Program-made: the position numbers and the translations under genes | Source of the DNA: a virus | Reading direction: 5' to 3' (one strand) | IMG/VR virus record: IMGVR_UViG_3300033143_003155 | Coordinates: 1 to 35,799 of that record | Length of the DNA: 35,799 nucleotides | Notes under the pieces: generated by a model | The model's input: only the letters and a program-made list of their open reading frames with translations | Database searches by the model: none | Told to the model about the DNA's origin: nothing | In this document: piece after piece, positions 1 through 8,310 of the stretch | Position numbering within the stretch: position 1 is the stretch's first letter | Layout of the letters: every line of letters starts with the position of its first letter

Positions 1-9
1 ACCAGTTTT

Positions 10-86
10 GCCCGCGACGCGTCCTAGTGGACCAAGTCGGCTGTCTACTGACTGTATGGAGGGTTCGATTCCCTTCGCGGGCGCCA
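10..86 (+). tRNA. tRNA-Asp (anticodon GTC)
   Basis: The acceptor strands GCCCGCG and CGCGGGC pair perfectly, followed by discriminator G and an encoded CCA. The anticodon arm is GTCGG-CTGTCTA-CTGAC, giving GTC, and the T arm is GAGGG-TTCGATT-CCCTT. The window opens with ACCAGTTTT, so another tRNA must end at about position 4. The CCAGTTTT trailer recurs through the array. Confidence 0.93.
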
Positions 87-112
87 GTTTTATAAAGTGA
101 AAAGGATAAATT

Positions 113-292
113 ATGAAAAAGTTTTTTGATAGAGTTTTTAGCGACATGTTTGATTTTGAACACATCCTAACTCCGTTTGCTGTTGAACATATGAAACGGC
201 GTTTTGTTCAAGGTACTTTTCAAACATACAGAATTTTTTATGTGTTTGGTATAAGAGTTGCTTTTTATGCAACTACAAAATTTGAGGTGTGA
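113..292 (+). CDS. small hypothetical protein (59 aa)
   Basis: A 59-residue frame starts at ATG 113 behind AAAAGGATAA and ends at TGA 290-292, just upstream of the next gene. It is rich in Phe, Tyr and Arg (begins MKKFFDRVFSDMF, ends TTKFEV). No domain or signal peptide is recognised. It fills the gap between tRNA-Asp and the next gene with same-strand spacing typical of phage genes, which supports it being real. Function unknown. Confidence 0.55.
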   Translation: MKKFFDRVFSDMFDFEHILTPFAVEHMKRRFVQGTFQTYRIFYVFGIRVAFYATTKFEV

Positions 293-294
293 TT

Positions 295-657
295 GTGAGT
301 AACACACCTTTGACTGAAGGTAAAACGCGAATGGCAGTAAAGCCTATTAATTATATGAAACCGTTAGGCCCTCCACCAGCAGGCGGATTTAAAAAAGGTG
401 AAATGGTTATAATGACCGCAGGTGATAAAGTAGGAAGAAGTATACTTGAGGATTTTGTTTACAAAGTTTACGATAAAGAAACTTTTGATTACTGGCAAAC
501 GCCAAAAGGTAAAAAAGTTTGGGCGAAGACAGGAAGCGCAAAAAATGCTTGGAACTGTCAAATGGCTTACCGTTACGGTGACAAAAAGTTTAGTGAACAA
601 GATAGATTTACTGTACATAAATTCAGTATGGTACTCGTTAAAGTTGAAGAAGAATAG
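295..657 (+). CDS. hypothetical protein (120 aa)
   Basis: The frame is read from GTG 295, which has GAGGTG about 6 bases upstream; an in-frame GTG at 289 lies too close to that ribosome site. The product begins VSNTPLTEGKTRM and carries a Pro/Gly-rich segment (PLGPPPAGGFKKGE) followed by a basic, aromatic C-terminal half. I recognise no family. It lies between tRNA-Asp and tRNA-Leu(TAG), ending 6 bases before the latter, so it is probably co-transcribed with them. Confidence 0.7.
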   Translation: MSNTPLTEGKTRMAVKPINYMKPLGPPPAGGFKKGEMVIMTAGDKVGRSILEDFVYKVYDKETFDYWQTPKGKKVWAKTGSAKNAWNCQMAYRYGDKKFSEQDRFTVHKFSMVLVKVEEE

Positions 658-663
658 TTTTAT

Positions 664-740
664 GCTCCCGTAGCCCAATTGGAAGAGGCAATGGCCTTAG
701 AAGTCATTCAGTGTGAGTTCGAATCTCACTGGGAGTACCA
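664..740 (+). tRNA. tRNA-Leu (anticodon TAG), short variable loop
   Basis: Acceptor GCTCCCG pairs with TGGGAGT (two wobbles), discriminator A, CCA encoded. The anticodon arm is ATGGC-CTTAGAA-GTCAT and the T arm GTGAG-TTCGAAT-CTCAC. The variable region is only about 5 nt, so this has class I shape, although bacterial and T4 leucine tRNAs normally carry a long variable arm. The anticodon reading is clear; aminoacylation with leucine is inferred. Confidence 0.85.
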
Positions 741-773
741 GTTTTTTAATGTTGTATTATGAGGAGATTGAAA

Positions 774-962
774 ATGGCTAAACGTCAAAATCAGGCTCAT
801 CGTGTTAAGGCTCGCCGTGAAGGCGCACTTGACCGTTTGAAGCATCCTAGCGCGGATTTAGTTGCTCGGGTTGCAAAGTTCACCAATGAGCAAAGGGAGA
901 ATCATAACGCCCGTGTTGCTAGAAACATTGAAGTATTAGAAAGCAGGATTGCTTTCGCGTAA
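774..962 (+). CDS. small basic protein (62 aa), unknown function
   Basis: The start chosen is ATG 774, preceded by GAGGAG at a normal distance; an upstream start at 759 would overlap that ribosome site. The 62-residue product (MAKRQNQAHRVKARREG...) is rich in Arg, Lys and Ala, looks mostly helical and has no signal peptide. The composition suggests a nucleic-acid contact role, but I recognise no family. It lies between two RNA genes of the array. Confidence 0.7.
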   Translation: MAKRQNQAHRVKARREGALDRLKHPSADLVARVAKFTNEQRENHNARVARNIEVLESRIAFA

Positions 963-970
963 GAAGTTTA

Positions 971-1034
971 TGGTGGGTCCTCGCTTGACCGTACCGATGA
1001 TAAGAGCAAAGGTCTTAAATATTGTCGCCCACCA
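971..1034 (+). ncRNA. structured non-tRNA RNA 1, CCA-ended
   Basis: A 64-nt segment is closed by TGGTGGG (971-977) pairing with CCCACCA (1028-1034). Inside are GGTC-CTCGCTT-GACC (976-990, sharing two G with the outer stem) and CGATGAT (995-1001) with ATTGTCG (1021-1027), which encloses TAAGA-GCAAAGG-TCTTA. GACC can instead pair with GGTC 1011-1014. There is no TTCGA T-loop or normal anticodon arm, yet it ends CCAGTTTTTT like the neighbouring tRNAs. It could be a decayed tRNA or a stable RNA like T4 RNA C/D. Confidence 0.5.
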
Positions 1035-1058
1035 GTTTTTTAATAAAGTTGTTATTGG

Positions 1059-1136
1059 GGTGTGTGTAGCTTAATTGGCTAAAGCCCCAAACTGTGAATT
1101 TGAAAGATGCGGGTTCGACTCCCGTCATTCACCCCA
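1059..1136 (+). tRNA. tRNA-His (anticodon GTG)
   Basis: The anticodon loop is CTGTGAA and the D arm is GCTT/AAGC. The extra G-1 (1059) faces C73 (1133), the histidine identity feature, and CCA is encoded at 1134-1136. The acceptor has one T-T mismatch. The flanks extend the acceptor into a perfect 12-bp inverted repeat (1051-1062 with 1130-1141), so the precursor would have an unusually long terminal stem. Confidence 0.88.
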
Positions 1137-1148
1137 ATAACAATTTAT

Positions 1149-1226
1149 GCTCTCGTGGTCCAACTGGCAGAGGCAACAGGTTTAAATTCTGTAAAGGTGT
1201 GGGTTCGAATCCCACCGGGAGTACCA
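1149..1226 (+). tRNA. tRNA-Leu (anticodon TAA), short variable loop
   Basis: Acceptor GCTCTCG pairs with CGGGAGT, discriminator A, CCA encoded. The anticodon arm is ACAGG-TTTAAAT-TCTGT and the T arm GTGGG-TTCGAAT-CCCAC. The variable loop is about 6 nt (class I shape). It resembles the TAG and CAA tRNAs in acceptor, D loop and T loop, so the three look like copies of one ancestor. Confidence 0.86.
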
Positions 1227-1267
1227 GTTTCATAATTAAGCATAGTTTCAACAGATGTTGAAACGCT

Positions 1268-1275
1268 TATAAATA
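1268..1275 (+). promoter_or_regulatory. T4-type late promoter element TATAAATA
   Basis: This is an exact match to the T4 late promoter -10 element, placed 21 bases before tRNA-Thr in an otherwise gene-free gap. T4 late promoters need only this element, with no -35. If used, it would drive the second half of the tRNA array and the DUF458 gene late in infection. The motif is short and the DNA AT-rich, so chance occurrence is possible. Confidence 0.45.
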
Positions 1276-1295
1276 GTGATAAGAAGAAAGTTTTT

Positions 1296-1370
1296 GCCCC
1301 TTAAGCATAAATGGCGATGCAGTTGCCTTGTAAGCATCATAAGTTGGTTCGATTCCGACAAGGGGCTCCA
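1296..1370 (+). tRNA. tRNA-Thr (anticodon TGT)
   Basis: Acceptor GCCCCTT/AAGGGGC is perfect, with discriminator T and encoded CCA. The D arm GCAT/ATGC is perfect. The anticodon arm GTTGC-CTTGTAA-GCATC has one internal T-T mismatch, and the T arm is GTTGG-TTCGATT-CCGAC. Anticodon TGT reads ACA. Bacterial Thr tRNAs usually have A at the discriminator, so T73 is unusual. Confidence 0.86.
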
Positions 1371-1388
1371 AATTATATGTAAAACAAC

Positions 1389-1458
1389 GTCATGCGATCT
1401 GGGATCAGATAAGTCTCCAAAACTGTTCAGCGGGGTTCGATTCCCTGGCGCGGCGCCA
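1389..1458 (+). tRNA. divergent tRNA-Trp-like gene (anticodon CCA)
   Basis: The loop CTCCAAA is that of bacterial tryptophan tRNA, with a normal T arm (CGGGG-TTCGATT-CCCTG), discriminator G and CCA. The 5' side is weak: acceptor GTCATGC pairs with GCGCGGC through wobbles and one A-C mismatch, the anticodon stem has about three good pairs, and the D loop is very short. It is either a degenerate or an unusually compact functional tRNA. A suppressor role is not indicated because the anticodon is plain CCA. Confidence 0.6.
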
Positions 1459-1477
1459 AACAAAAGGAACGTATATC

Positions 1478-1951
1478 ATGGCAAAAATTAAAGAAGTAGA
1501 TATGAAGATGGATGTTGTAAAACAGTTCATTGAAGACTCATCTGAGAGAAGTGCTGTGTACGTTGGTTGTGATTCAAAAGTTGCAACAAAAAGAGGTAAA
1601 AGAGTAGCGGTGTATGTTGTGGTTATTGTTGTACACAAAGACCAAAACTGCGGCGCAAAATTATTCAAGCAAGTGAGAGTATTGCCTGACTACGGAAACA
1701 TGAGACAACGTCTTATGCAAGAAGTTTACATGGCAGCAGAGATTGGTCTTGAGTTAGTAGATGTAGTAGGCGAGAGACCATTTGAAATTCACTTAGACTT
1801 GAACCCAAACCCAAACGAGAAGTCGTCGGTTGTAATCAAAGAAGCAATGGGTTACATTATGGGTGTATTGGGTGTTGAAGCAAATGTGAAACCTAATTCA
1901 ATTGCATCATCTTGTGCAGCAGATAGATGGGCAGTTAAGTTAGCGGGTTAA
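1478..1951 (+). CDS. DUF458/YkuK-family RNase H-fold protein
   Basis: The 157-residue product matches the DUF458 (YkuK-like) pattern: YVGCDSK near residue 28, a hydrophobic strand (VAVYVVVIVVHK), RQRLMQEVYMAAEIG around residues 75-90, IHLDLNPNPNEKSS, then KPNSIASSCAADR. The Asp residues in CDSK, HLDLNP and AADR lie where RuvC/RNase H-fold nucleases hold metal. The family is predicted to be a nuclease, but its substrate is not established. The start has AAAGGAACG upstream. It sits between tRNA-Trp and tRNA-Arg, so a role in RNA handling is plausible but inferred. Confidence 0.8.
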   Translation: MAKIKEVDMKMDVVKQFIEDSSERSAVYVGCDSKVATKRGKRVAVYVVVIVVHKDQNCGAKLFKQVRVLPDYGNMRQRLMQEVYMAAEIGLELVDVVGERPFEIHLDLNPNPNEKSSVVIKEAMGYIMGVLGVEANVKPNSIASSCAADRWAVKLAG

Positions 1952-1958
1952 AGTTAGA

Positions 1959-2034
1959 GCCCTTGTGAGTCAATTGGATAACGGCAGGCCTACGAAGCTT
2001 TGCAATGGGGGTTCGAATCCCTCCCAGGGTGCCA
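1959..2034 (+). tRNA. tRNA-Arg (anticodon ACG)
   Basis: Loop CTACGAA gives anticodon ACG; the T arm is GGGGG-TTCGAAT-CCCTC, with discriminator G and encoded CCA. Acceptor GCCCTTG pairs with CCAGGGT with one mismatch and a terminal G-T. A34 normally becomes inosine through TadA, which would have to come from the host. The gene starts 8 bases after the upstream stop codon. Confidence 0.85.
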
Positions 2035-2038
2035 GTTT

Positions 2039-2109
2039 TACAATGTAAAGTGATTAGTGAAGGGAGGATGACCGATGCCCTTGTAACATGGTCCAGGCTT
2101 TACATTGTA
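2039..2109 (+). ncRNA. structured RNA 2: 12-bp closing stem with internal pseudoknot
   Basis: TACAATGTAAAG (2039-2050) pairs perfectly with 2098-2109. Inside the 47-nt loop, GACC-G-ATG (2070-2077) pairs with CATGGTC (2087-2093) with one bulged G. The loop of this hairpin, CCCTTGTAA, contains CCCTT (2078-2082), which is complementary to AAGGG (2060-2064) upstream, so an H-type pseudoknot can form. It contains no tRNA arms, has no coding potential I can see, and lies 4 bases after tRNA-Arg. Confidence 0.6.
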
Positions 2110-2119
2110 GATTTAATTA

Positions 2120-2183
2120 GTCAGTTTAAGCGCCGCTCATGACGAATAGGTAGCGCACCACGTTCGTTAAAAGAGCGACTGAC
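2120..2183 (+). ncRNA. structured RNA 3: long stem-loop with loop-bulge complementarity
   Basis: GTCAGT (2120-2125) pairs with ACTGAC (2178-2183). After an 8-nt bulge, CGCTC (2134-2138) pairs with GAGCG (2173-2177), continuous on the 3' side. Further in, ACGAA (2142-2146) pairs with TTCGT (2163-2167) and GGT with ACC around loop AGCGC. GCGC in the bulge (2130-2133) is complementary to GCGC in the loop (2153-2156), a possible tertiary contact. It is not a tRNA and contains no protein gene. Confidence 0.5.
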
Positions 2184-2192
2184 AATAGGTGT

Positions 2193-2299
2193 CGTAGTGT
2201 GTATGAGGCGAACAAGCCATTGCACCCTCCGAAGAGTATAACTGATTATTCTATGACGTTATACGAACGGTGCCGTTAGCACGGTGATAGAATACTACG
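2193..2299 (+). ncRNA. structured RNA 4: pseudoknotted, abutting tRNA-Lys
   Basis: CGTAGT (2193-2198) pairs with ACTACG (2294-2299) to close a 107-nt domain. Inside, GTATAAC (2236-2242) pairs with GTTATAC (2258-2264). Its loop holds ATTCTAT (2248-2254), which pairs perfectly with ATAGAAT (2287-2293), making an H-type pseudoknot. GTGC/GCAC (2270-2282) forms a hairpin between the two pseudoknot strands, and GGC-GAACAA-GCC (2207-2218) another. It ends 4 bases before tRNA-Lys, so RNase P cleavage there would release its 3' end. Confidence 0.55.
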
Positions 2300-2303
2300 C
2301 TAT

Positions 2304-2380
2304 GGGTTTATCGTATAAATGGCAATTACAGCGGACTCTTAATCCGTCAGATCAAGGTTCAAATCCTTGTAGACCCACCA
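2304..2380 (+). tRNA. tRNA-Lys (anticodon CTT)
   Basis: Acceptor GGGTTTA pairs with TAGACCC, discriminator A, CCA encoded. The anticodon arm is GCGGA-CTCTTAA-TCCGT and the T arm CAAGG-TTCAAAT-CCTTG. In other phage-host pairs the lysine tRNA anticodon loop is the target of the PrrC nuclease, which may matter because this window also encodes an RNA kinase and ligase. Confidence 0.88.
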
Positions 2381-2386
2381 ATTTAC

Positions 2387-2432
2387 GGACTGTGCTGGTA
2401 ACCGTGGTTTGAGGTTATTAGCTTGTCCACCA
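2387..2432 (+). ncRNA. 46-nt CCA-ended mini-RNA (RNA 5)
   Basis: GGAC (2387-2390) pairs with GTCC (2425-2428), followed by A and CCA, exactly as at a tRNA 3' end, then GTTTT. Between the strands is one hairpin: GCTGGTAACC (2394-2403) pairs over all ten positions with GGTTATTAGC (2413-2422), two of them G-U, around a 9-nt loop. There are no D, anticodon or T arms. It lies 6 bases after tRNA-Lys and 5 before tRNA-Gly. It looks like a tRNA minihelix mimic that could be processed with the array. Confidence 0.6.
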
Positions 2433-2437
2433 GTTTT

Positions 2438-2512
2438 GCGTTTAAGGTGTCAGTGGTCGCACGACACGTTGCCAACGTGTAGGAATGGGTTCGATTCCCA
2501 TTAGACGCTCCA
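2438..2512 (+). tRNA. tRNA-Gly (anticodon GCC)
   Basis: Acceptor GCGTTTA pairs with TAGACGC, discriminator T (usual for bacterial glycine tRNA), CCA encoded. The anticodon arm ACACG-TTGCCAA-CGTGT is perfect, and the T arm is AATGGG-TTCGATT-CCCATT. It is followed by AGTTTT and, 8 bases on, by the second glycine tRNA. Confidence 0.92.
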
Positions 2513-2520
2513 AGTTTTAT

Positions 2521-2602
2521 GCGGGTGAGTCCACAAGGTGTGGAACCAGGTTTCCAACCTGACGCGAAAGCATGGCGAGTTCGATTCTCGTCACCCGCTC
2601 CA
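2521..2602 (+). tRNA. tRNA-Gly (anticodon TCC) with extended variable arm
   Basis: Acceptor GCGGGTG/CACCCGC is perfect, discriminator T, CCA encoded, close to the E. coli glycine(UCC) acceptor end. The D stem TCCA/TGGA is perfect and the anticodon loop is TTTCCAA. Between the anticodon and T stems is about 12 nt containing GC-GAAA-GC, which makes a small hairpin, as in class II tRNAs. Glycine tRNAs normally have a short loop here. Confidence 0.88.
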
Positions 2603-2612
2603 GTTTGAAGTT

Positions 2613-2813
2613 ATGGAAAACGGAGAAGATAAAAAGGAGAAGTGTAAAGAAACAATTATGGTTAATTGTTCACTCATTGATTTGAGGGTAGATACCGAGG
2701 AAATCAAAATAACGCCAGAAGATACATTTTTTGGCATAATTTTAAAAAGCAAAAACCTTAAAACGAGGTTTACATTTATTGTTGTTGTTATTGTTTTAAT
2801 ATTAATATTATGA
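2613..2813 (+). CDS. small protein with C-terminal membrane segment (66 aa)
   Basis: The most likely start is ATG 2613, just after tRNA-Gly; its ribosome site is weak (GAAG). The product begins MENGEDKKEKCKE, is acidic and Lys-rich, and ends in one strongly hydrophobic segment (FTFIVVVIVLILIL) at the very C-terminus, like a tail-anchored membrane protein. ATG 2658 is an alternative start. No family is recognised. It lies 12 bases before the macro-domain gene. Confidence 0.5.
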   Translation: MENGEDKKEKCKETIMVNCSLIDLRVDTEEIKITPEDTFFGIILKSKNLKTRFTFIVVVIVLILIL

Positions 2814-2825
2814 AAAGGGTTTTAT

Positions 2826-3341
2826 ATGATTACGCGAAAGACAGGCGATTTGTTATCCGTAACTGAAGGTTTTATTGTTCATGGTTGCAATGCTCGAGGC
2901 ATCATGGGTTCAGGTGTAGCGTTACAAATACGTCGTAGATATCCTGAGGCATTCAGGGGATATTATGAGTATGTGAAAAGAGTTGAAAATTACAATGCTC
3001 GTTTAGGTGATGCAGGTAATATTAAACTGGCAGGCAAAGTTATTAATCATTTTGTTGATAAGAAGCTTGTCATTGTAAACGCAATAACGCAGGATAGTTT
3101 TGGTAGAGATCCTAATGTTATATATGTAGACTATGACGCTGTAAGAGAAAGTTTCAAAGTTCTTAATGGTATGTTACAAGCTCGTAGAAATAACGATGAA
3201 TACGAAAAGATTAAGAAGGTTGTTAATTTCCCATTGATTGGTTGTGGTTTGGCTAATGGAGATTGGGAAATTGTAAGAGATATCATTGATGAAGAATTAG
3301 ATGATGATATTGAAAAAGTTTTGTGGATTTGGGAAGGATAA
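2826..3341 (+). CDS. macro-domain ADP-ribose-binding protein
   Basis: The 171-residue product has the macro-domain signature: IVHGCNARGIMGSGVA (about residues 17-32), IRRRYPEAF, IVNAITQ and PLIGCGLANGDWE near 136-148. The Asn in GCNARG and the glycine loops bind ADP-ribose. Known activities are hydrolysis of ADP-ribose 1''-phosphate (a by-product of some tRNA ligation routes) and removal of ADP-ribose or its derivatives from substrates; which applies here cannot be read from sequence. The ribosome site is AAAAGGG. It lies in the tRNA array, 7 bases before tRNA-Gln. Confidence 0.88.
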   Translation: MITRKTGDLLSVTEGFIVHGCNARGIMGSGVALQIRRRYPEAFRGYYEYVKRVENYNARLGDAGNIKLAGKVINHFVDKKLVIVNAITQDSFGRDPNVIYVDYDAVRESFKVLNGMLQARRNNDEYEKIKKVVNFPLIGCGLANGDWEIVRDIIDEELDDDIEKVLWIWEG

Positions 3342-3348
3342 GAATTAT

Positions 3349-3435
3349 AGGGCTGTAGGAAAACTGGCTAACCCCAACAGGCTTTGAACCTGTCGTCGAA
3401 AGACATTGTGAGTTCGAATCTCACCTGCCCTTCCA
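3349..3435 (+). tRNA. tRNA-Gln (anticodon TTG) with long variable arm
   Basis: The anticodon arm ACAGG-CTTTGAA-CCTGT is perfect and the T arm GTGAG-TTCGAAT-CTCAC is perfect. Acceptor AGGGCTG pairs with CTGCCCT with one T-T mismatch, discriminator T, CCA encoded. The variable region of about 14 nt folds as GTC-GAAA-GAC. Glutamine tRNAs normally have a short variable loop and G73, so this 87-nt gene is atypical in both. The D arm is weak. Confidence 0.8.
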
Positions 3436-3458
3436 ATTTATATACAAGTGGAGTTATT

Positions 3459-3737
3459 ATGAGTAAACGATCACAAGGTTTAGGTTTAATTTTAGGTGTT
3501 GTAGCAGTATCAATTTTATTAGGTGTAACTTATGCTAGTAAAGAGGTAAGTGAATTAGACTATAATATCATAAGACACCAAATAAATTTTAAATGTCCTG
3601 ATACTGAGAAAGATGTAAAAAGATTTTTGGCGAATGACGACATTATAGATGAAGTTGAAATGTCTATGTATGAAGAGATTTGTGATCAAGAAGAAGTTGA
3701 TAAATCAAAAGAAAGATTAATTGATTATATGAATTAA
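3459..3737 (+). CDS. small membrane-anchored or exported protein (92 aa)
   Basis: The start is ATG 3459, after GTGGAG; an in-frame extension upstream would run through tRNA-Gln. The N-terminus (MSKRSQGLGL followed by a hydrophobic stretch to about residue 25) is a signal anchor or signal peptide. The rest is acidic and charged with two Cys, probably periplasmic. No family is recognised. It lies between tRNA-Gln and tRNA-Leu(CAA), and its stop ends one base before the tRNA. Confidence 0.7.
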   Translation: MSKRSQGLGLILGVVAVSILLGVTYASKEVSELDYNIIRHQINFKCPDTEKDVKRFLANDDIIDEVEMSMYEEICDQEEVDKSKERLIDYMN

Positions 3738-3738
3738 T

Positions 3739-3816
3739 GCTCCTGTAGCCCAATTGGCAGAGGCGGTGTCTTCAAACGGCATTTATGTGTGGGTTCGAAT
3801 CCCATTGGGAGTACCA
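3739..3816 (+). tRNA. tRNA-Leu (anticodon CAA), short variable loop
   Basis: Acceptor GCTCCTG pairs with TGGGAGT, discriminator A, CCA encoded. The anticodon arm is GTGTC-TTCAAAC-GGCAT and the T arm GTGGG-TTCGAAT-CCCAT. The variable loop is about 6 nt. It is the last tRNA of the array and the third leucine-anticodon tRNA of class I shape. Confidence 0.85.
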
Positions 3817-3839: not shown

Positions 3840-4094
3840 ATGAAAGATGCAAAAGTTTCAGTAAACTACGAATGTAATCATTGTGAAGGGTCTGGCAAAA
3901 ATGGCAAGACTGTAGAAGAAGCAATGGAGTACGAAAGAAATATGCCGCTCGGCGGTGTCATAACAATGGGAGCTCCACCAGATTGTTATGATGCAAAGCT
4001 AACAAGAATCATGCAATGCCCCATCTGTTCTGGAAGTGGCAGGCTCACAAAATTTATTCCCCTTCATGTATTACTCTCAGGAAAACAAATATGA
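3840..4094 (+). CDS. DnaJ-type CxxCxGxG zinc-binding protein (84 aa)
   Basis: Starts at ATG 3840, 23 bases after tRNA-Leu. It has two CxxCxGxG-type elements, CNHCEGSG near residue 14 and CPICSGSG near residue 61, as in the central zinc domain of DnaJ, separated by about 45 residues. DnaJ has four such elements and a J domain; here there is one pair and no J domain, so it is a stand-alone zinc protein, possibly protein- or RNA-binding. Its stop overlaps the next start (ATGA). Confidence 0.7.
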   Translation: MKDAKVSVNYECNHCEGSGKNGKTVEEAMEYERNMPLGGVITMGAPPDCYDAKLTRIMQCPICSGSGRLTKFIPLHVLLSGKQI

Positions 4095-5631: not shown

Positions 5632-5832
5632 ATGGGTGTTGAAGAATTATTTTTTGCTTATTGGGATTGGTATTTGTTAGTAGGATTTTTTGTTACTATT
5701 TGGTTTTTCCTATTGACCACTGATATCCCATCGCTTCGCTCCAAAACATACGGTCCTGGTATTTATGTAATGGCAGGTGCGATTGTTTGGTTGATGTGGC
5801 CTGCAGTTATCATATATAGGTATTCAAAATGA
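5632..5832 (+). CDS. small two-pass membrane protein, YWDWYL family copy A (66 aa)
   Basis: Two hydrophobic segments (about residues 13-30 and 43-61) flank a polar loop. The N-terminal AYWDWYLLVGF and C-terminal IVWLMWPAVIIYR recur in the proteins at 6591 and 23950, so this is one of three paralogues in the window. Both ends probably face the same side. The function is unknown; the repeat of the gene suggests a useful envelope-directed role such as membrane modification or superinfection exclusion, which is inference. The stop overlaps the next start. Confidence 0.75.
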   Translation: MGVEELFFAYWDWYLLVGFFVTIWFFLLTTDIPSLRSKTYGPGIYVMAGAIVWLMWPAVIIYRYSK

Positions 5833-6416
5833 TAATCTATTTACATGGATTCAATAGTTCAGGTAATACTGCAAATACTGAATTGTTGAAGAAAGACCTT
5901 GCTCAATACGATATTGAATTGGTTGCTCCTAAAGATTATGCACCATATAGTCCAAGGGTTGCTGTTGATAAAATCTCAAAGCTAATCGAAAAATACATGG
6001 ACATGGGTGAAGAACCTATTATCATGGGCTCATCCTTAGGTGGTTATTATGCAAGGTTTGTGGCAGATATATATGGCTTGAAATGTATCCTTGTCAATCC
6101 TTCACTAAATCCTAAAGAAACGCTAAAAGGTAAAATTGGTGAGAACACCAATTTTGTCACAGGAGAGAAATACTTATTAACAGAGCGCAACTTAAACATC
6201 CTTGAGGCAAACTTTAATATGAAAGGAAGTTTTAGTGGTGAAGGTACGCTTGTATTATTGAATGAAGGAGACGAGGTTATAGATCACAATATCGCCGTTA
6301 AGGAATTTTGGTCTGATGGTAAAGTTATTGTTTATCCGGGTGGTGAACATAGGTTTAATTTCACACCAACTGTTACCGCTGAGATTGTTAAATTTTATAA
6401 TATAATGTGGGGTTAA
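5829..6416 (+). CDS. YqiA-like alpha/beta-hydrolase esterase
   Basis: The 195-residue product closely follows the YqiA (UPF0227) family: IIYLHGFNSSG at the N-terminus (oxyanion region), the nucleophile elbow GSSLGGYYA near residues 67-75, an Asp in NEGDEVIDH and a His in GGEHRF near residue 176, completing a Ser-Asp-His triad. The length matches E. coli YqiA (193). The family has esterase activity on short acyl esters, with unclear physiology. It starts in an ATGA overlap with the membrane gene. Its role in phage infection is unknown. Confidence 0.88.
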   Translation: MIIYLHGFNSSGNTANTELLKKDLAQYDIELVAPKDYAPYSPRVAVDKISKLIEKYMDMGEEPIIMGSSLGGYYARFVADIYGLKCILVNPSLNPKETLKGKIGENTNFVTGEKYLLTERNLNILEANFNMKGSFSGEGTLVLLNEGDEVIDHNIAVKEFWSDGKVIVYPGGEHRFNFTPTVTAEIVKFYNIMWG

Positions 6417-7185: not shown

Positions 7186-7375
7186 CACCGCTAAAAAGTT
7201 ACGTTGGATTCCTTATGTAGGAATTATTCCTTGTATGATCGTTGAGATCATGGACGAGGACGAAGCAAAAGAGAATAAGGTGTTGTGGTTAAAATTATTC
7301 GCATTTAGAGCAACCCATATTGCAATTATTGTTATGAGTTTGTTCTATATATTTAAGTGGAGTGTAACGTCATGA
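7169..7375 (+). CDS. small membrane protein (68 aa)
   Basis: It overlaps the Cys-rich gene by 17 bases. One hydrophobic hairpin near residues 13-26 (IPYVGIIPCMIVEI) and a stronger one near 47-63 (ATHIAIIVMSLFYIF) frame a charged, Glu-rich loop. It is not clearly related to the YWDWYL family. The stop overlaps nadA (ATGA). Function unknown. Confidence 0.65.
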   Translation: MKLEYNTAKKLRWIPYVGIIPCMIVEIMDEDEAKENKVLWLKLFAFRATHIAIIVMSLFYIFKWSVTS

Positions 7376-8310
7376 GAAAAATGTCTGACACATTAGTACT
7401 CGCGCACTATTACACAATTCCTGAGGTTCAGGAAATGGCTGACTTCGTCGGTGATAGTTTAGAGTTGTCGCGCAAGGCGGCTGAAATTAAACCTAAACGT
7501 ATTGTGTTCGCTGGTGTTCGCTTCATGGCTGAAACTGCCAAGATCCTTTCACCAAAGTCAGAAGTTATCATTCCTGATATAGAATCAACTTGTTCCTTAG
7601 TTGAAGATACTGACTCAATTATTTTAGCCCACTGGGTAGCTAATCACCGCAGATACCAAAAAGCAGAGTTTGGTAAAGACACCACCCACATAATGTATAT
7701 CAATTCATCTGCAGAGATGAAGGCACTGGCGGATATTATTGTTACATCTGCAAACGTTGAAGACGTTGTCCGTGGTGAAATTGAAAAAGGTAATAGTGTA
7801 TTTTTCAGTCCTGACTACAATATGGGAAGGTATTTGAATAAGACCAATGGTTGGGATATGGGATTGTGGAACGCTGTTTGTGAAGTTCACGATAAATTCA
7901 AAGCCGAAGAGATAGATTTTGCTATGAAGGGTTGGACTGACGGACCTAAGTTTTTACTCGCTCACCCTGAGAGCCCGCTGCCAGTATTAGAAAAAGCAGA
8001 TCTCGTTGGCTCAACTTCTAAAATGCTCAAGTGGGTTGAGGACTATCCTCACAAAATAGCAACGATATTTGTTGCAACTGAGGACGGTTTGCTGTATAAT
8101 ATGCGTAAATTGCGGCCAGAGCTTGATATACGCCAGGCGCCAACATATAGTGGATGTCAGTGTAACTCGTGTCCTTATATGAAGATGAATACTGTTGAAC
8201 TGGTGAAAGCATCTATAGAAGGAACTGCAGGACAGGAGATTGATTACTTGTCAAGTAAAGAGATTAAGAAAGCTCGTAAACCACTAGATAGGATGTTGAA
8301 TTATGTTTGA
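7372..8310 (+). CDS. nadA: quinolinate synthase NadA
   Basis: The 312-residue product carries NadA landmarks: LAHYYTIPEVQEMADFVGDSLELS at the N-terminus, FAGVRFMAETAKIL, PDIESTCSL (Cys74), a YINSSAEMKALAD strand, TSAN, NAVCEVH (Cys170), HPE near 198-200, ADLVGSTSKM and GCQCNSCPYM (Cys262/264/267). One Cys from each of the three places would hold the 4Fe-4S cluster. The enzyme condenses iminoaspartate with dihydroxyacetone phosphate to quinolinate in de novo NAD synthesis. The start is ATG 7372 in an ATGA overlap with GGAG upstream. No nadB or nadC lies in the window, so host enzymes must supply those steps. Confidence 0.95.
   Translation: MRKMSDTLVLAHYYTIPEVQEMADFVGDSLELSRKAAEIKPKRIVFAGVRFMAETAKILSPKSEVIIPDIESTCSLVEDTDSIILAHWVANHRRYQKAEFGKDTTHIMYINSSAEMKALADIIVTSANVEDVVRGEIEKGNSVFFSPDYNMGRYLNKTNGWDMGLWNAVCEVHDKFKAEEIDFAMKGWTDGPKFLLAHPESPLPVLEKADLVGSTSKMLKWVEDYPHKIATIFVATEDGLLYNMRKLRPELDIRQAPTYSGCQCNSCPYMKMNTVELVKASIEGTAGQEIDYLSSKEIKKARKPLDRMLNYV

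Follow-up and report, generated by a model that had tools for sequence, protein, structure and literature searches.

Annotations of phage tRNA arrays usually list the tRNAs and leave the gaps between them empty. The locus studied here raises the question of what such a gap can hold: between tRNA-Lys and tRNA-Gly, 46 nt are predicted to fold into a hairpin that closes with an acceptor-like stem and an encoded CCA. Is this a discrete small RNA, the relic of a tRNA gene, or a spacer?

The phage and its tRNA array

The window is the whole 35.8-kb viral record IMGVR_UViG_3300033143_003155 of IMG/VR (positions 1-35,799). The phage is T4-like, with genes for topoisomerase II, RNA ligase, a polynucleotide kinase-phosphatase-like protein and T4-type baseplate and tail proteins. 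Its topoisomerase II shares at most 47% identity with the best phage match; Stenotrophomonas phages RAS14 and CM1 and the huge phage LR756502 are among the nearest known phages by this protein. Neither topoisomerase II nor the macro-domain protein led to close relatives, and there was no close match in IMG/VR.

A dense tRNA array occupies positions 1-3816, with nine tRNAs called by ARAGORN. At least three further tRNA-like genes went undetected by this program (10-85, 1388-1458 and 2521-2601, weak matches to the tRNA-Sec model). RNase H-like and macro-domain proteins are encoded within the array and quinolinate synthase NadA further on (1478-1951, 2826-3341 and 7357-8310); many other phages have relatives of the RNase H-like protein in their tRNA arrays. 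The features around the gap are:

2304..2380, plus strand: tRNA-Lys (ctt), upstream neighbour of the mini-RNA
2387..2432, plus strand: CCA-ended mini-RNA, 46 nt, sequence GGACTGTGCTGGTAACCGTGGTTTGAGGTTATTAGCTTGTCCACCA (fold and chance tests)
2387..2390, plus strand: 5' strand GGAC of the acceptor-like stem (pairs 2387-2428 to 2390-2425, probability at least 0.99)
2394..2403, plus strand: 5' strand of the inner stem, GCTGGTAACC (pair probabilities; two G-U pairs)
2404..2412, plus strand: terminal loop GTGGTTTGA, neither anticodon-like nor T-loop-like (RNA fold)
2413..2422, plus strand: 3' strand of the inner stem, GGTTATTAGC (pair probabilities)
2425..2428, plus strand: 3' strand GTCC of the acceptor-like stem (pair probabilities)
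2429..2432, plus strand: single-stranded ACCA, a discriminator-like A and CCA (RNA fold)
2433..2437, plus strand: trailer GTTTT, also present at tRNA genes of the array (motif occurrences)
2438..2512, plus strand: tRNA-Gly (gcc), downstream neighbour of the mini-RNA

A predicted CCA-ended hairpin between two tRNAs

In the predicted fold, an internal loop (TGT/TT) separates the 4-bp GGAC/GTCC stem from an inner stem of 10 bp, two of them G-U; a 9-nt loop caps the inner stem, and the terminal ACCA is left unpaired. Its energy of -19.6 kcal/mol (z -3.7) was equalled by none of 200 shuffles, and every pair has a predicted probability of at least 0.99. The two G-U pairs mark the pairing of the inner stem as RNA-type, and the transcribed strand folds better than the other one (z -3.9 vs -2.5). 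A preliminary description of this locus had claimed a 46-nt CCA-ended GGAC/GTCC hairpin with a 10-bp interior, closely spaced between its neighbours and sharing their GTTTT trailer. Fold, z and shuffles bear out the hairpin; ARAGORN coordinates agree with the spacing, which is 6 nt from the end of tRNA-Lys (2380) and 5 nt to the start of tRNA-Gly (2438); and the trailer is indeed common, with CCAGTTTT at four nearby tRNA ends.

How often would such a structure arise by chance? We counted hairpins whose body of 28-60 nt closes immediately 5' of N-CCA and whose energy is -0.40 kcal/mol/nt or lower. The window holds one on the plus strand and none on the minus strand; the sole one is the mini-RNA, which is also the top CCA-closed structure of both strands by energy per base. 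Across 200 shuffled windows the mean was 0.135 such hairpins per strand, or 0.08 at the value of the real element, and none of these chance hairpins had GTTTT next to it.

On the plus strand, CCAGTTTT occurs six times, always within the tRNA array: at the ends of four tRNAs, one of which is truncated by the start of the window, at an element spanning 972-1034 and at the mini-RNA. Since the motif is common to the four tRNA ends, the mini-RNA bears the local signature of a tRNA 3' end.

Its ends, discriminator A, CCA and GTTTT also match those of a tRNA gene, as they would if an internal deletion had taken out the D, T and anticodon arms, the rest folding by chance. Another phage array (L044) has a tRNA-Lys with GGAC/GTCC-A-CCA ends and a GTTTT trailer, the window has a second odd CCA-ended stretch at 972-1034, and no relatives conserve the element. 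Leftover sequence, however, would not be expected to form a nearly perfect stem of 10 bp with z -3.7, and CCA-ended mini-RNAs with conserved pairing recur elsewhere (see below). We consider a tRNA-gene remnant possible, if on balance unlikely; it is the strongest rival because the window copy comes without conservation evidence, with a passive spacer ranked behind it.

Stability by itself does not set the hairpin apart, since inter-tRNA spacers fold well in general. Among 94 non-coding gaps in arrays of related loci (gaps without a T-loop motif, called with ARAGORN, a program that overlooks unusual tRNAs), z averages -1.6 and is below -2 in 36%; the window gap with the mini-RNA ranks fifth by fold z. 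Folded gaps this common suit a hairpin that separates pre-tRNAs and guides RNase P and 3' nucleases, the released piece having no further job. Yet many neighbouring tRNAs of these arrays are only about 2-12 nt apart, and an encoded ACCA at the end of the closing stem is not needed in a spacer but is recurrent. We find this explanation rather unlikely. The distinguishing mark of the mini-RNA is its acceptor-like closing stem with an encoded ACCA, fitted between two tRNAs.

Four T follow the hairpin, as might be expected of an intrinsic terminator or attenuator between the tRNA genes. That would call for a G+C stem with a T-run at once after it; here 5 nt (ACCAG) lie between the stem and the T-run, the run has four T only, no terminator-like site was found at this position and tRNA genes continue downstream. 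We attach next to no weight to this alternative.

Comparison with known RNA classes

At 2387-2432, neither ARAGORN nor the Rfam tRNA model (RF00005) matched a cloverleaf with T-loop and anticodon arm. None of 4227 Rfam models matched the mini-RNA, and the window gave no non-tRNA match; a permuted tRNA-like layout, with T-arm, acceptor 3' strand and CCA upstream of the acceptor 5' strand, was not matched in the window either. Armless mitochondrial-type tRNAs have a 7-bp acceptor stem and a 7-nt anticodon loop with U33. The mini-RNA is of similar length and has an acceptor-like end and one arm, but its acceptor stem has 4 bp and its 9-nt loop GTGGTTTGA lacks the U33/purine-37 pattern. Together with the silence of both tRNA searches, this makes a charged and decoding minimal tRNA, as in some animal mitochondria, highly improbable.

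Among phage RNAs, the T4 stable RNAs C and D are non-tRNA species of unknown function encoded among the phage tRNA genes, and so resemble the mini-RNA in place; they exceed 100 nt, whereas the mini-RNA has 46 nt. To our knowledge, neither M3 RNA nor C4 antisense RNA is a 46-nt element with a CCA end that lies packed between tRNA genes. They are likewise small phage non-tRNA RNAs, and they are RNase P substrates (PMC11143913), whereas the window RNA is only expected to be cut. GOLLD and ROOL are also phage RNAs without known function that lie close to tRNA islands (PMC12286853), but they have several hundred nt and an elaborate structure, and the window is without Rfam matches other than tRNA.

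Bacterial RNase P processes phage RNAs such as M3 and C4, and it cleaves hairpins ending in RCCA (PMC11143913, PMC12710915). In model minihelix and hairpin substrates, a stem with an RCCA 3' end suffices for cleavage (PMC11143913, PMC12710915). These are laboratory constructs, whereas the window RNA is a natural gene layout; its predicted fold offers the same arrangement, a stem followed by single-stranded RCCA (here ACCA).

Search for relatives of the mini-RNA

A pattern search of IMG/VR with the conserved stem and loop of the mini-RNA found no match, and blastn against 50,697 phage records gave chance matches only. Its single-sequence covariance model was run over 945 kb of tRNA-array loci, where the best match (E 0.42) fell in a locus that has no tRNAs, and over 46 whole viral or phage records, where it found nothing. 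Because no sequence relative was found, the mini-RNA is without covariation support of its own. A search of the open-access literature found no description of such mini-RNAs.

Two lookalikes were set aside. L048 1930-1982, which initially resembled a 53-nt mini-RNA, is part of a permuted tRNA-like RNA by comparison with L019 and L049, and the similarity in L044 and L045 is the 3' end of an ordinary tRNA-Lys.

A family of mini-RNAs in other phage arrays

We scanned the gaps of arrays at loci found via the RNase H-like protein and in the phages nearest by topoisomerase II. These gaps and the searches that followed from them yielded four elements:

RAS14 element, 50 nt, GCCGATTAAGGGAAAGCCCGGAAGAGGCTTCTTCCGCCCTATCGGCTCCA: 8 nt after tRNA-His in Stenotrophomonas phage RAS14; identical in CM1
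LR756502 element, 46 nt, GTCGGGTAAGGGAACTCACGGTGGGAGCACCGCCCCCTCGGCTCCA: 4 nt after tRNA-Ile in the 642-kb huge phage LR756502
L128 element, 49 nt: at 3915-3963 of IMG/VR contig L128, 6 nt after one tRNA-Lys and 4 nt before another
A3Wally element, 49 nt: directly abutting a tRNA, unannotated, in Microbacterium phage A3Wally (MZ150783.1, from 91945 to about 91993) and a sister phage

The RAS14 and LR756502 elements are alike in sequence. A pattern drawn from both had five matches in IMG/VR, four by chance and one real (L128), and blastn with the L128 element led to A3Wally and its sister phage. The A3Wally element is recovered at E 8e-10 by a covariance model built from the first three members (RAS14, LR756502 and L128). 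In an alignment of the four distinct sequences fitted to the model, 96.6% of cells pair, compared with 43-54% in slid controls, and four pairs show compensatory changes with both sides altered. The A3Wally member ends in TCCT, not CCA. An unpaired TAAGGGAA is kept across the family (TCAGGGAA in A3Wally), and its retention suggests that something binds there.

A search of Rfam with the family found no match. Bacterial genomes gave five pattern matches, none beside tRNAs or with a convincing fold; the best scored 22.3 bits vs 50-72 bits for family members, and all were taken as chance. Plasmids held no match of weight. Judged from sequence and predicted pairing, these small, mostly CCA-ended RNAs between phage tRNAs are a conserved and previously undescribed family, present in phages of Gram-negative and actinobacterial hosts.

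Does the window mini-RNA belong to it? The family covariance model R2, with its TAAGGGAA bulges and 6+4+5-bp layout, did not report it up to E 5 in a search of 1.06 Mb, in which family members scored 61-72 bits. The layout agrees: 46-50 nt, an acceptor-like stem directly before N-CCA, and a place between or next to tRNA genes. Family members resemble the window RNA in this length, in an acceptor-like closing stem with bulges and, mostly, in the CCA end; however, their conserved TAAGGGAA and CGG..CCGCCC are absent from it, and U precedes CCA in the family but A in the window. Before the internal loop, the acceptor stem of the window RNA has 4 bp, compared with 6 bp for family members and 7 bp for tRNAs. 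By these comparisons the window mini-RNA is family-like in size, topology and position, and is not a sequence member. Because minis recur in phage arrays, one family of them with compensatory changes, a functional class is credible.

Proposed maturation and function

Our best reading, to which we give a probability of about 45%, is a discrete CCA-ended minihelix RNA within the phage tRNA transcript, matured by tRNA enzymes and probably acting by acceptor-end mimicry. It builds on what is observed: the sequence, predicted fold, position, non-randomness and recurrence. In its favour we count the fold and chance tests, CCAGTTTT, the tight packing between tRNAs, the G-U pairs and the better fold of the transcribed strand, and also the lack of a terminator-like site, the recurrence of the family and the acceptance of RCCA hairpins by RNase P. 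Against it count the lack of a detectable relative, the miss by R2, the 4-bp acceptor stem, the TCCT end in A3Wally and the well-folded spacers of arrays generally.

The proposed part concerns the transcript, its cuts, and the stability and function of the product. Host tRNA-processing enzymes would cut the long tRNA transcript, RNase P acting both at 2387 (as on a hairpin substrate with RCCA) and where tRNA-Gly begins; exonucleases would shorten the GTTTT trailer back to CCA. We infer this release because the stem with ACCA fits RNase P hairpin substrates; the product would be a stable stem of 46 nt that ends like the acceptor of a tRNA. Such a minihelix would then most likely act in trans, mimicking the acceptor end to bind and occupy a protein that recognises tRNA ends: candidates are processing enzymes, nucleases that trim ends and defence enzymes that target tRNAs. 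Acceptor-end mimicry is preferred because the acceptor-like end is common to the window RNA and most of the family, while the loops vary.

The best-known minihelix identities are G3:U70 for Ala, G-1 for His and U73 for Gly. The mini-RNA has A-U as its third pair, no extra G before G1 and A as discriminator. With these identities absent, the preliminary suggestion of a synthetase substrate becomes unlikely for the Ala, His and Gly enzymes. The decoy for defence nucleases, put forward in the same description, survives in part: anticodon mimicry is unlikely because the window loop is not anticodon-like and the family loops vary, whereas acceptor-end mimicry is possible.

More speculatively, phage arrays might encode a whole class of very small CCA-ended acceptor-end mimics that mature like tRNAs and occupy host processing, quality-control or tRNA-targeting defence enzymes. 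It would include at least one family in phages of Gram-negative and actinobacterial hosts, with the window RNA as an independent or highly diverged representative; we regard this wider proposal as doubtful. If made, CCA-ended minis would rank among the smallest natural tRNA-end mimics and would be a plausible means to act on RNA-processing or tRNA-cutting defence enzymes. Their existence and effect are directly testable, since the family is present in the isolated phages A3Wally, RAS14 and CM1.

Other candidate RNAs in the window and in related arrays

Several further stretches were noted along the way. The second CCA-ended non-tRNA stretch of the window, at 972-1034, has the CCAGTTTT end and a weak fold, pairing either as GGGT/GCCC-A-CCA or as a 7-bp stem that includes the CC. 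Between tRNA-Arg and tRNA-Lys, at about 2040-2110, lies a hairpin with the core GGAGGATGACCGATGNCC...CATGGTCCAGG (also given as GGAGGATGACCGATGCCC..CATGGTCCAGG), without match in Rfam. The core is present again in Achromobacter phage JWAlpha (L008 1484-1559), where a tRNA-like sequence follows directly downstream, and in IMG/VR contig L090 (6499-6577); the closing stems of the three hairpins differ yet pair. From this hairpin to tRNA-Lys, about 190 nt without a long ORF (2111-2303) contain a stem AGTCAGT..ACTGAC and may be a further RNA.

Permuted tRNA-like RNAs occur at six IMG/VR loci (L019 13135-13234, L048 1871-1989, L049 12768-12877, L094 ~586-700, L095 ~5742-5850 and L097 ~7538-7658). 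Their order is outer stem, CAGCAAA, T-arm with GGTTCGATTCC, acceptor 3' strand, CCA, short linker, acceptor 5' strand, D-arm-like hairpin and outer stem. The outer and acceptor stems vary in sequence with pairing kept, the outer stem covarying; no tmRNA-like stop codon was found in them, nor a match in Rfam where checked.

On average, phage tRNA genes are separated by strongly folded gaps (in the L002-L089 arrays, and also in A3Wally, L143), and for this reason phage tRNA arrays seem, on predicted folds, to hold many undescribed RNAs. Four tRNA-like genes ending in CCA or similar escaped ARAGORN (L004 8107-8192, L006 8519-8651, L048 902-983 and L007 11508-11603); their T-loop reads AGCGTTA or ATCGTTA, not TTCGAAT. 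On the minus strand of L092, 69 nt at 2769-2837 match the whole length of the tmRNA model while leaving no space for a tag region, at a score below cut-off (16.9 bits, E 0.0018). On the minus strand of L121, right after the RAS14 mini-RNA and before tRNA-Val, stands another likely RNA with the closing stem ACTATCAAATG..CATTTGATA.
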